A stretch of 10,442 bases of DNA from an uncultured Oscillospiraceae bacterium (GTDB lineage: Bacteria > Bacillota_A > Clostridia > Oscillospirales > Oscillospiraceae). This document shows, in pieces, positions 5,717 to 10,442 of this stretch. Below the pieces are notes generated by a model that saw only the letters and a list, made by a program, of their open reading frames with translations, was not told the DNA's origin and searched no databases. The stretch's first letter is position 1; the number at the start of each line of letters is the position of its first letter. The stretch lies in the NCBI GenBank assembly GCA_944386965.1, contig CALXDE010000250.1, forward strand, positions 1 to 10,442, written 5' to 3'. Made by a program: the position numbers and the translations under genes.

Positions 5717-6229
5717 GTGTCTCTTACATTGCAACCCTATGACCGGGCCGGGGCGGTCGCCTATGCCCACCACTGGGCCTATGGCCGCAATCCCCGGTTT
5801 TATGACTACGAGCGCTTGGGCGGTGACTGCACCAATTTTGCCTCCCAGTGTCTATACGCCGGCGGCGGAGTGATGAATTTTGTACGGGATTTTGGATGGT
5901 ACTATGTTGATCCCAACCAGAAAGCGCCCGCCTGGACCGGTGTGGAGTATCTTTTCCAATTTTTGACCCGAGAACAGCCCTCGGCCGGTCCGGCGGCCGT
6001 CGAAGGCGGACCGGAGGATATGATGCCCGGCGATATCATCCAGCTCTCCTTTGATGGACAGCGGTTCGCCCACTCGCCGGTGGTGGTGGTGGGGGGGACG
6101 GAACGTCCAGACAGGACGCTCCAGCTCCTGGTTGCCGCCCACAGCCATGACTGTGACAACAGGCCGCTTCACACCTATCCCTTTCAAAAAGCGCGCTATC
6201 TCCACATAACCGGTATCTACCGGCCCTAA
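5717..6229 (+). CDS. Amidase_6-domain protein (putative cysteine amidase/peptidase)
   Basis: About 170 residues forming a single Amidase_6-like domain. Visible motifs: the opening YDRAGAVAYAHHWAYGRNPRF, the nucleophile segment GGDCTNFASQCLYAGG (C38), the MMPGDIIQL turn typical of NlpC/P60- and CHAP-like folds, and the histidines H119 (FAHS) and H142 (AAHSHDCDN); H119 is the better candidate for the catalytic base. Such domains are thought to cleave amide bonds, often in cell-wall material, but the substrate is unknown. There is no signal peptide or anchor, unlike many wall-active members. GTG 5717 was chosen because GGAGGT (5705-5710) lies 6 bases upstream; GTG 5711 touches that site. The stop overlaps that of the convergent recombinase gene by 3 bases (CTAA at 6226-6229). 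Confidence 0.85.
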   Translation: MSLTLQPYDRAGAVAYAHHWAYGRNPRFYDYERLGGDCTNFASQCLYAGGGVMNFVRDFGWYYVDPNQKAPAWTGVEYLFQFLTREQPSAGPAAVEGGPEDMMPGDIIQLSFDGQRFAHSPVVVVGGTERPDRTLQLLVAAHSHDCDNRPLHTYPFQKARYLHITGIYRP

Positions 6230-7245
6230 GTTTCGGATTTCGATTTGGACTTCGGCTTCACGTGGCCCAGCGGGTTGGCTCTGGCCGCCACCCGCAGGGC
6301 TTCGTTGTCGATGTGGGTATAGATCTCCGTGGTGTTCAGGTGCTCATGGCCCAGCACCTCCTGTACCGCTTTTACATCCACGCCGTTCTGGAGCATCAGC
6401 GTGGCCGCCGTATGGCGCAGCTTGTGGGAGGAGTACTCCTTGCTGTCCAGGCCCGCCTTGGCCAGATACTTCTTTACCAGGGCGTGGACACTAGAGCGGC
6501 TGATGCGCTGATCCCGGGAAGAGAGGAAGAGGGCGGCGGCATCCCGGCCGGTGATCGGATGGCGAACGGCCAGATAGCGGCGCAGGGCCTCCTGACAGGC
6601 GTCGTTGAGATAGACGATCCGGACCTTGTTGCCCTTGCCGTAGACCCGCAGAGCGTCGTCCTGGATATCGTTGAGGTTGATACCGATGAGCTCAGAGATC
6701 CGGAGCCCGCAGTTGAGAAAAAGCGTGAGGATACAGTAGTCCCGCTCCTGCTGAACGCCGTCCACGGCCTCCAGAAGCTCCATGGATTCTCCCAGAGTCA
6801 GATATTTGGGCAGAGATTTTTGAAGCTTGGGGGAGTCGATGTCCCGAATGGGATTTTCCGCCAGAAGGTGGGCCTTATTGGTAAGATAGTTAAAAAATGA
6901 ACGAAGTGTGGCGATCTTTCGCGCCCGGGAGGAGGCGGACAGGCCATATCCGGAGTACCGGCTGTTTTGATGGAGCACCCGGTCCCGGCTGAGATAGGCC
7001 ATATAGCCGTATACATCCGTCAGCGTGATGGTGCGGATAAAGTCGATTTCCACATCCCGGATGTCGATTTCATCCAGTTCCTTGTCCCGAAGGGCTGGGT
7101 TTCGGATCTGTTTCATGTAGCGCAGGAAATTGCGCATATCCAGATAATACTCATCAACAGTTTTTTGGGAATGGGCCTTGATCGTCTCATGGTAGGATAG
7201 AAAATCAATCAGGATGCGCGGAGAATCCGCCCTATAGTCCAACAT
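6226..7245 (-). CDS. Tyrosine recombinase, XerC/XerD-like
   Basis: A 339-residue phage-integrase-family recombinase. The N-terminal SAM-like DNA-binding domain spans about residues 8-125 and the catalytic domain about 145-325. The catalytic set is complete: R182 (NCGLRISEL), K207 (GKGNKVR), H274-x-x-R277 (SSHKLRHTAA), H300 (EVLGHEHL) and the nucleophile Y309 (TTEIYTH). The tail is short and basic (KPKSKSKS). It may be the chromosome-dimer-resolution enzyme or a paralogue; surrounding housekeeping genes argue against recent arrival on an integrative element. The start is uncertain: ATG 7245 begins the family-like MLDYRADSPRILIDFL. GTG codons at 7266 and 7326 are alternatives, and none has a convincing ribosome binding site. 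A perfect palindrome lies upstream at 7335-7362. Confidence 0.9.
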   Translation of the reverse strand: MLDYRADSPRILIDFLSYHETIKAHSQKTVDEYYLDMRNFLRYMKQIRNPALRDKELDEIDIRDVEIDFIRTITLTDVYGYMAYLSRDRVLHQNSRYSGYGLSASSRARKIATLRSFFNYLTNKAHLLAENPIRDIDSPKLQKSLPKYLTLGESMELLEAVDGVQQERDYCILTLFLNCGLRISELIGINLNDIQDDALRVYGKGNKVRIVYLNDACQEALRRYLAVRHPITGRDAAALFLSSRDQRISRSSVHALVKKYLAKAGLDSKEYSSHKLRHTAATLMLQNGVDVKAVQEVLGHEHLNTTEIYTHIDNEALRVAARANPLGHVKPKSKSKSET

Positions 7246-7334
7246 ATCCAATTCGGGACGCCGCACATATGGATGAGGCGGAGCGGTGAGAACGCGCCAG
7301 CCGGAGCCGCCGCAAGCCCGGACCACTCCCCTAT

Positions 7335-9607: not shown

Positions 9608-9632
9608 CACTTTTCCGGCGGCGGCATACAAT
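9604..9632 (+). promoter_or_regulatory. Candidate promoter of the cotJ operon
   Basis: TCGACA (9604-9609) and TACAAT (9627-9632) are 17 bases apart and would suit SigA. The same -10 region reads CATACAAT (9625-9632), which matches the -10 consensus of SigE, the mother-cell factor that controls cotJ in Bacillus subtilis. The SigE -35 is poor here. The -35 box overlaps that of the divergent cwlD promoter in the palindrome TGTCGACA (9602-9609). Confidence 0.6.
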
Positions 9633-9683: not shown

Positions 9684-10136
9684 TTGTACAACGAACCTGC
9701 CAACACCGGCGATGTGCTGGACGGCAATCTGCCGGGCAAGCGCGCCGGCATGGTGTTTCCCTATGTTCCCATGCAGAACAGCAGTCCCGCCGTGTATGAA
9801 CAGGCGGAGGGCCTGGAGAATGGTACGCTGTTTCCGGGCCTGAATCTCCCCTTTCACAAGGAGATCAAGACTCGCCTCAACTGTAATAATACTCCCCTGT
9901 GTGAGCTGATGGCCCTGGATTTTGCTGTGGCGGAGCTGGGGCTGTATCTGGACACCCACAAGGAGGACCGGGAGGCCTTCGCGCTCTATCAGAAATATGC
10001 CGCCATGTATCAGGAGGGCAAGGCCAAATATGAGAAGCAGTACGGTCCCCTGGAGCAGAGTTCAGCCGCCCAGGGCTCCAGCTACAACTGGCTGGAAAAT
10101 CCGTGGCCCTGGGATTATGTGGGAGGTGGCAAATAA
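9684..10136 (+). CDS. cotJB: Fused CotJA-CotJB spore coat protein
   Basis: A 150-residue protein joining two coat proteins that are normally separate. Residues about 24-57 (VFPYVPMQ...VYEQAEGLENGTLFPGLNLPF) match the CotJA pattern. Residues about 70-144 match CotJB: LALDFAVAEL-type opening, LGLYLDTHKEDREA, YEKQYGPL and the diagnostic YNWLENPWPW. The frame is continuous with no stop between the parts, so this is a genuine fusion or a reading of one. The start is TTG 9684, supported by AGGAGG (9669-9674) 9 bases upstream; no ATG in frame is near. The proteins are mother-cell products that assemble in the inner spore coat with CotJC. The stop overlaps the next start as TAATG (10134-10138). Confidence 0.88.
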   Translation: MYNEPANTGDVLDGNLPGKRAGMVFPYVPMQNSSPAVYEQAEGLENGTLFPGLNLPFHKEIKTRLNCNNTPLCELMALDFAVAELGLYLDTHKEDREAFALYQKYAAMYQEGKAKYEKQYGPLEQSSAAQGSSYNWLENPWPWDYVGGGK

Positions 10137-10336
10137 TGTTTGTCTATGAGAAGAAGCTCCAGTATCCGGTAAAGATCAAGAACACAAACCCCAAACTGGC
10201 GGCAATCATTATCTCCCAGTACGGCGGACCGGACGGAGAGCTGGGCGCCTCGCTGCGCTATCTGAGCCAGCGTTTCTCCATGCCCTATCCCGAGCTGAAG
10301 GGACTCCTCACCGACATCGGTACCGAGGGGTCATAA
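10136..10336 (+). pseudogene. cotJC: CotJC manganese-catalase-like coat protein, truncated after residue 64
   Basis: The first 64 residues (MFVYEKKLQYPVKIKN...LAAIIISQYGGPDGELGASLRYLSQRFSMPYPELKGLLTDIGTE) match CotJC closely, with no decay. Family members run on for about 190-200 residues, continuing GTE-ELAHLEM, which holds metal-binding Glu and His. Here GTE is followed by GS and a TAA stop at 10334-10336. None of the three plus-strand frames downstream to 10442 resumes CotJC sequence, so a simple point frameshift is excluded within the visible region. A GGAGG site (10122-10126) lies 9 bases before ATG, and the start overlaps the cotJAB stop. The 5' part therefore looks fully functional for expression. 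The break is best explained by an insertion or other rearrangement at about 10328; misassembly is the alternative. Confidence 0.8.
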
Positions 10337-10440
10337 TGACACCCTCTTTTGCGGTGGAGGCTCGTAATGGACTCCAATACAAAGCGCCACTTGGCGGGGA
10401 GCAGATTCAATCGTATTTCCAGACGTCGATTTGGATACAC
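10285..10440 (-). CDS. Possible C-terminal tail of a large serine recombinase (partial)
   Basis: This minus-strand frame enters from the right window edge and is open for 51 codons to a TAG at 10287-10285, inside cotJC. It begins VYPNRRLEIRLNLLPAKW. The pattern V-Y-x-x-[KR]-R-[LI]-E-I-x-[LF] is what I would expect near the C-terminus of clostridial large serine recombinases, whose genes usually sit at the edge of their element with the 3' end next to the attachment site. The later part (about residue 38 onward) would be read from host cotJC DNA. The evidence is one short motif, and another minus frame ends at 10331, so this may be chance. Confidence 0.25.
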   Translation of the reverse strand: MYPNRRLEIRLNLLPAKWRFVLESITSLHRKRGCHYDPSVPMSVRSPFSSG

Positions 10441-10442
10441 GA
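10328..10442. mobile_element. Possible left edge of an element inserted in cotJC
   Basis: From about 10328 cotJC homology ends abruptly. The last 112 bases are roughly 49% G+C by my count, whereas the surrounding genes are clearly more GC-rich. The codon pattern in every open frame lacks the strong G/C third-position bias of the neighbours. A near-palindrome spans the junction (10325-10346). A plus-strand frame opens at ATG 10336 with GAGGGG upstream, overlapping the cotJC stop (TAATG); its 35 visible residues (MTPSFAVEARNG...) are not recognised. On the minus strand one frame resembles a recombinase tail. Too little is visible to name the element. Confidence 0.4.

Follow-up and report, generated by a model that had tools for sequence, protein, structure and literature searches.

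Break of the coat gene cotJC at a serine-recombinase element in an uncultured Oscillospiraceae bacterium and its relatives, and its possible excision in the mother cell

The fdxN element of heterocyst genes is excised in the terminal cell by a serine recombinase, XisF. In spore formers, developmental DNA excision has so far been described for a handful of genes with one element each, as far as the available literature goes. The skin element splits sigK of B. subtilis and C. difficile, a mother-cell gene interrupted by a large-serine-recombinase element as in the locus described here (PMC5025042, available part). Also comparable is gin, a non-prophage element in the mother-cell gene gerE of B. 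cereus ATCC10987, for which a large serine recombinase (GirC), a directionality factor (GirX) and a 9-bp consensus at the crossover are given in the available text (PMC5595907). Other named intervening elements of sporulation genes are SPbeta in spsM, vfbin in spoVFB and yin in yabG (PMC10747680, in the part available); cotJC is absent from the main text of that paper. What comes nearest to an element within cotJC is the C. difficile prophage phi027, described directly beside a cotJC-like gene (PMC11222575, PMC12122855, available parts). No element within cotJC is reported in the available portions of the cotJC literature examined (PMC8878733, PMC11222575, PMC12122855), a search that left most subscription papers and preprints aside.

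Here we describe a split cotJC gene in a 10,442-nt stretch of DNA (contig CALXDE010000250.1, called the window below) from an uncultured Oscillospiraceae bacterium. The cotJ genes form a mother-cell coat operon. In the window, a fused cotJA-cotJB ORF of 150 aa (9684..10136, + strand; Pfam CotJA 1.6e-11, CotJB 4.2e-27) lies 5′ of cotJC. Ahead of the cotJ genes, CATACAAT (9625..9632, + strand) resembles a sigma-E/K -10 element by pattern alone; an ATA-type -35 is missing upstream of this putative -10. The 5′ part of cotJC, codons 1-64 (10136..10327, + strand), was delimited with PF05067 and the intact cotJC of two relatives, L207 and L208. It starts with an ATG at 10136 and encodes 64 CotJC residues, which are followed by G-S and a stop at 10334-10336. 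The match to Pfam Mn_catalase PF05067 (E 5.4e-20) covers profile positions 1-65 of 284, CotJC similarity ends at codon 63/64, and none of the three forward frames of 10329-10442 contains a CotJC continuation. The original prediction of a cotJC that stops after 64 conserved residues, with no CotJC frame downstream, is thereby confirmed; the drop in GC that it noted is present but weak (0.50 over the 114 nt past the junction, 0.57 for 9684-10328 and 0.60 for the whole window). It had also proposed a comparison with intact relatives, and this revealed an empty site in both best-matching genomes: L207 and L208, which match best among 400 genomes searched (77% and 75% identity over ∼1.5 kb), both have an intact cotJC. 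Over codons 1-63 the window is 87% identical to the first of these two loci and 84% to the second; past codon 64, the values for the next 114 nt are 25% and 19%.

In a phage collection the window junction matched one record, MT839280 (L001), a 4.4-kb human faecal scaffold labelled UNVERIFIED and unannotated. Its ORFs resemble a host locus (radA-like, amidase-like, cotJAB, and cotJC as in the window), and a 562-aa recombinase ORF lies on the opposite strand past the cotJC cut. As cotJC is cut at the identical codon in this second, diverged faecal contig, whose cotJ genes are 69% identical to those of the window, the cut is not a chance event. At 1465-1959, where the window has the fused cotJA-cotJB, the same scaffold has one ORF of like length. 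No match to the junction DNA was found in plasmids, nor to the exact 20-base junction pattern in viral contigs. Rfam at gathering thresholds gave no match in the window, which thus contains no known intron or riboswitch. The window also encodes a 366-aa tyrosine recombinase with a Phage_integrase domain (6226-7326, - strand), situated between amidase-like and radA-like genes in what is apparently host chromosome.

The DNA past the junction (10329..10442) is the left end of an intervening element that continues past the window end; its forward frames are free of cotJC, and the minus strand encodes the C-terminus of a recombinase. The 51 residues and stop at 10285..10440 (- strand) belong to a large serine recombinase; compared with a set of 120 proteins, they align with recombinase C-termini at 51-55% identity, with a best E of 2e-15. 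This frame, read from 10440 to 10285, is open across the junction, and its final 12 residues, VPMSVRSPFSSG, are encoded by antisense cotJC; recombinase and host gene therefore overlap at the junction. Within the overlap, GGTAC (10319..10323, + strand; codons G62-T63) is the presumed attachment-site core at the left junction, by comparison with the GG. and GG.AC ends of the relatives. A P[MIT]S[VLF] tail, the product of the overlap with cotJC, occurs in 89 of the best 120 homologues listed out of 7912. Since the tail arises in this way, it is a sign that many of these homologues may sit in cotJC. The insertion and the recombinase end are directly visible in the window itself.

To gather related loci we used an alignment of 15 homologues (A1), which gave 80 loci from GTDB genomes (the best 80 of at least 578 relatives) and 75 from IMG/VR. 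A recombinase was seen at most 700 nt from the edge of a cotJC cut at the window's position, hereafter site B, in 60 of these best 80 GTDB loci, 49 times at the 5′ part of cotJC and 11 times at the 3′ part only, and at a cotJC cut in 5 of the 75 IMG/VR loci. Outside the 60, L018 and L043 have a split cotJC with the edge further from the recombinase. Both ends could be paired for 22 site-B elements, a set that includes L203. In L075, which has two cotJC copies, two pairings that crossed from one copy to the other were removed. Twenty-one are 2,437 to 10,130 bp long; some others are larger, among them one of ∼72 kb by coordinates in G011. In each of the 22 the left edge carries a GG. codon and the right edge GG.AC, mutually in frame, and the 3′ halves begin at EL[A/G/N]H. 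The joined cotJC reading exceeds 150 aa in 19 of the 22. As for the three exceptions, L058 is cut upstream too (its 5′ start is not real), L077 runs off its contig and L038 has a second break. The joined readings of L014 and L046 are not whole genes, because both also begin at site A. One stop was found in 29 listed rows of 3′ halves (28 genomes, L080 being identical with L188), and it lies in L038 beyond the second break. The inspected 3′ halves have no start codon of their own and show no decay, and the ligands E65, H68, E136 and H169 are retained in 23 of 23 C-halves checked. Counting sites A to D together, a recombinase ORF was present in 27 of 27 two-ended elements. The original prediction had placed the missing 3′ half at the far end of an element with a short repeat common to both ends. 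Both were found in the relatives, where the 3′ half joins in frame and the repeat occurs in all 22 elements; the window, which ends 114 nt past the junction, gives the left core alone. Likewise, for the proposed serine-recombinase element in cotJC, the recombinase C-terminus and the left core come from the window and the right core from the relatives.

The breaks in cotJC are not confined to site B. A CotJC query was run against 150 genomes of the Oscillibacter sp. ER4 (G001) family and 150 of the Eubacterium sp. 14-2 (G011) family and matched 117 and 94 genomes, respectively. Rows of at least 45% identity among the matches listed were classified and paralogues at 30-35% were dropped, which kept 115 and 94 genomes. 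Of these, 44 of 115 and 40 of 94 were scored as having a split cotJC, by local-alignment boundaries in draft genomes where a contig end can mimic a break (candidates are G053, and also G441 and G436 at residues 91-112); 69 and 53 genomes had intact copies only, and 2 and 1 were ambiguous. An intact copy was also listed in 1 of the 44 and 10 of the 40 split genomes, all figures being from drafts. Unlike in the original picture of one insertion site, cotJC has four main sites. Site A (codons ∼29-34) was broken in 11 genomes of the G001 family and 15 of the G011 family, site B (codons 62-63) in 26 and 16, site C (codons 134-136) in 9 of each family, and site D (codons ∼173-176) in 12 and 8; each of the four has examples in which the junction DNA was read. 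The intact CotJC of L207 aligns with 1jku and other Mn catalases of known structure. By this alignment the metal ligands E35, E66, H69, E148 and H181 of 1jku map to CotJC E35, E65, H68, E136 and H169. Site A thus lies before E35, site B before E65, site C at E136 and site D just after H169. We read this as the recombinases targeting the best-conserved DNA of cotJC.

Some genes are cut more than once. Two or more sites were counted in 14 and 8 genomes of the two families, which are upper bounds because of alignment boundaries, contig ends, draft assemblies and the possible pooling of both copies in two-copy genomes. On one contig of G082 (L203), a 4.8-kb element at B and a 9.2-kb element at D separate cotJC pieces at 1229-1420, 6217-6564 and 15808-15885, all in frame. 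One contig of G028 (Acetivibrio alkalicellulosi, in a record titled UNVERIFIED_CONTAM) combines A (3.2 kb) with B. G010 has B on one contig and C divided with another contig, and G068 has a break at C plus one at D, the far side of which was not found. A regular expression for right ends at site D gave no match. In G169 (contig C1), two cotJC pieces at 71980-72309 (- strand) and 129685-129870 (+ strand) lie 57 kb apart in opposite orientation, as if the DNA between were inverted.

Ten cotJC stretches were re-read, the majority of them flagged with stops in the genome searches. The cotJC part was stop-free in G547, G583, G598, G587, G576 (two pieces) and G014 contig C44; the G583 stop comes after residue 191, where the match ends. 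G014 contig C36 holds a second, partial 3′ copy from near residue 110 with a stop upstream of the similarity, and G568 has an unsplit cotJC copy with a TAG at codon 9. In G531 the stop is outside cotJC, and both edges (contigs C38 and C18; L281 and L272) carry GGAATTGG at codons 65-67. This shared sequence defines a fifth insertion point, which neighbours site B by a few bases and whose halves also join in frame; G531 is counted under site B in the tally above. The flagged rows outside the ten are mostly alignments running past the cut edge.

Each main site in cotJC is associated with its own recombinase type. In the same draw of 150 G001-family genomes, all 11 A-split genomes contained the A recombinase (L187), as did 3 of the 139 remaining ones (Fisher p 2e-14); of these three, G017 and G080 look A-split on other rows. 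The B recombinase (A1 profile) was present in 21 of 26 B-split genomes and 8 of 124 others (p 9e-15). For the C recombinase (L196, at least 53% identity, without the 42-46% matches in G056, G103 and G158 and a second, additional match in G117) the counts were 8 of 9 and 0 of 141 (p 2e-12). The D recombinase (L203) gave 8 of 12 and 6 of 138 (p 2e-7) and is the weakest case, as beyond L203 itself its matches have 35-39% identity and several are not at cotJC. The smallest p among the 12 off-diagonal pairs of recombinase and site was 0.014. All five A, C and D recombinases scanned have Resolvase and Recombinase domains, and four of the five have the Zn-ribbon.

Upstream of the recombinase in site-B elements, on the same strand, a small ORF, called at 38-159 aa, was detected by HMM in 54 of the 74 genome loci and in 13 viral ones; the 15 seeds of the HMM are members of the counted set, and 20 of the 74 genome loci gave no detection. 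Four of these partner proteins were scanned, three against Pfam and four against NCBIfam, with no match above cut-off. Within ∼200 nt upstream of the partner-recombinase unit we sought the pattern ATA-N15-17-CATANNNT. It was present in 20 of 56 cotJC-adjacent genome loci and absent in the other 36, whereas among 1193 control ORFs taken from the same loci 29 had it; with one locus per cluster it was present in 9 of 40 (p 1e-6 vs controls). No such promoter is visible in the window. Among genome loci with no adjacent cotJC in view the count was 3 of 19, and it was 1 of 5 for cotJC-adjacent viral loci and 1 of 64 for other viral relatives. An RRACAR box lies 4-5 nt inside the match in ten of the 20 promoters, where 0.55 would be expected from shuffled spacers, although five of the ten form one close group. 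These patterns are presumably sigma-E and SpoIIID signals. The sigma-E-like pattern does not amount to a general rule: within 500 nt upstream it is missing at all 14 A recombinases and present at one of 8 C recombinases, while all four weaker C-like recombinases, which have no tie to site C, carry it at a distance of 195-279 nt. In the available part of PMC5025042, spoIVCA of B. subtilis and the C. difficile directionality factor gene CD1234 are described as controlled by sigma-E and SpoIIID.

We consider it likely that the recombinase element splitting cotJC of the window is excised in the mother cell, which would restore the gene. The main alternative is an ordinary mobile element, site-specific with conserved cotJC codons as its attB, that is excised occasionally for its own transfer, cotJC being dispensable and lost and sporulation playing no part. 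The elements do move. In seven pairs, drawn from six genomes of different species, dS is 0.15-0.37 for the recombinases, far below that of the cotJC 5′ halves (0.97 to saturation), so the elements spread horizontally between species. Recombinase omega in these seven close pairs is 0.06-0.12, and the recombinases are thus under constraint. Some elements also carry cargo such as lacto-N-biose phosphorylase and sugar epimerases, and the larger ones contain DUF4143 ATPases and a histidine kinase as well. In the site-B element of L046 (10802-16724), the phosphorylase is accompanied by a solute-binding protein, probably for host-glycan use. Other intervening elements contain an Orn/Lys/Arg decarboxylase (L196, 5810-7282) and an RsgA-type GTPase (L038, 6307-7494).

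Three further points favour such a mobile element. For two C. difficile cotJC genes, insertional mutants reportedly have lower catalase activity and no significant coat defect (PMC11222575); a quarter of the split G011-family genomes, as counted above, keep an intact copy; and the promoter signal is nil at A and almost nil at C. Against it stand the lack of decay in the inspected 3′ halves despite their having no start of their own, the sigma-E-like and RRACAR signals ahead of the B recombinases, and the second insertions in genes that were already split, whose pieces are still in frame. Moreover, 43 of the 44 split genomes of the G001 family, drafts as they are, list no intact copy. Intact 3′ halves alone are no proof of use after insertion, because the elements have moved recently between species; they could partly reflect young insertions. 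For the same reason, and with dS mostly saturated, we rejected dN/dS as proof of selection after insertion; the values do not count from the time of the insertion. On balance we judge an ordinary mobile element without a link to sporulation to be improbable. The insert had initially been described as prophage-like, of which the recombinase element stood; a prophage is unsupported by the 12 cargo proteins scanned from seven elements, none of which is a phage protein, but may still apply to the large elements of 20-70 kb. Most two-ended elements are 2.4-10 kb, and the elements move between species.

That cotJC of the window is pseudogene debris, interrupted by an element that is itself dead, could be argued from the window, which contains the left end of the element only; the recombinase frame, open across the junction, and the low recombinase omega in the seven close pairs of relatives make this very unlikely. 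An assembly error or chimera, suggested by a junction 114 nt from the window end, is negligible in view of like junctions in L001 and in the 60 of the best 80 genome loci (of at least 578), including Oscillibacter sp. ER4, and is not tenable for a family of loci.

Taken together, the split structure of cotJC is secure, and the relatives have core repeats, halves that join in frame, a spread over species and an association of recombinase type with site. On the favoured reading of excision in the mother cell, vegetative cells would have cotJC split at G62-T63 and the element would be inherited along with the chromosome. The mother cell would make the recombinase and its small partner from a sigma-E promoter, perhaps also under SpoIIID. 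The recombinase would then join both cores and the element would leave as a circle, restoring the reading frame of cotJC at the time the cotJ operon is required, while the spore would retain the split copy. The timing of excision, a role of the partner as directionality factor and the use of restored CotJC are inferred, and the window element presumably has the promoter and partner of its relatives. With some reserve, we lean to a more general proposal, that in many Clostridia cotJC is an assembled gene: recombinase types would have their own sites beside ligand codons, two or more elements could occupy one gene, and each would be excised by its own recombinase in the mother cell before CotJC with a whole active site is made. 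If true, several site-specific recombinases would build one bacterial gene out of three or more pieces during development, and this in a large share of species. Mobile DNA may have a general refuge in terminal mother cells if excision is developmental, and the recurrence of the pattern in cotJC provides many natural tests of this. The elements also offer recombinases with defined attachment sites, and in the small ones a directionality factor should be easy to find.

Compared with the described systems, what is new is a single coat gene found split in some two fifths of the CotJC-positive genomes from the two sampled families, at fixed active-site positions, with different recombinase types and sometimes twice. 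The fdxN element belongs to cyanobacteria and nitrogen-fixation genes, unlike the cotJC elements; the B recombinase matches NCBIfam XisF with E 8e-37, which is below cut-off (127 of 375 bits), and scores higher with CcrB, also below cut-off. The yin element is reported as unique to one strain in the available text of PMC10747680, whereas the cotJC elements are widespread. At 28.6 kb, gin (PMC5595907, available part) lies in a different gene and is far larger than the smallest cotJC elements, which at 2.4 kb have little room beyond recombinase and partner. The target of skin is a sigma factor and here it is a coat catalase, with four main sites in the one gene, most two-ended elements of 2.4-10 kb and no phage gene among the proteins scanned. 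The cotJC elements are best read as elements of the skin and gin type on a new gene, with several per gene.
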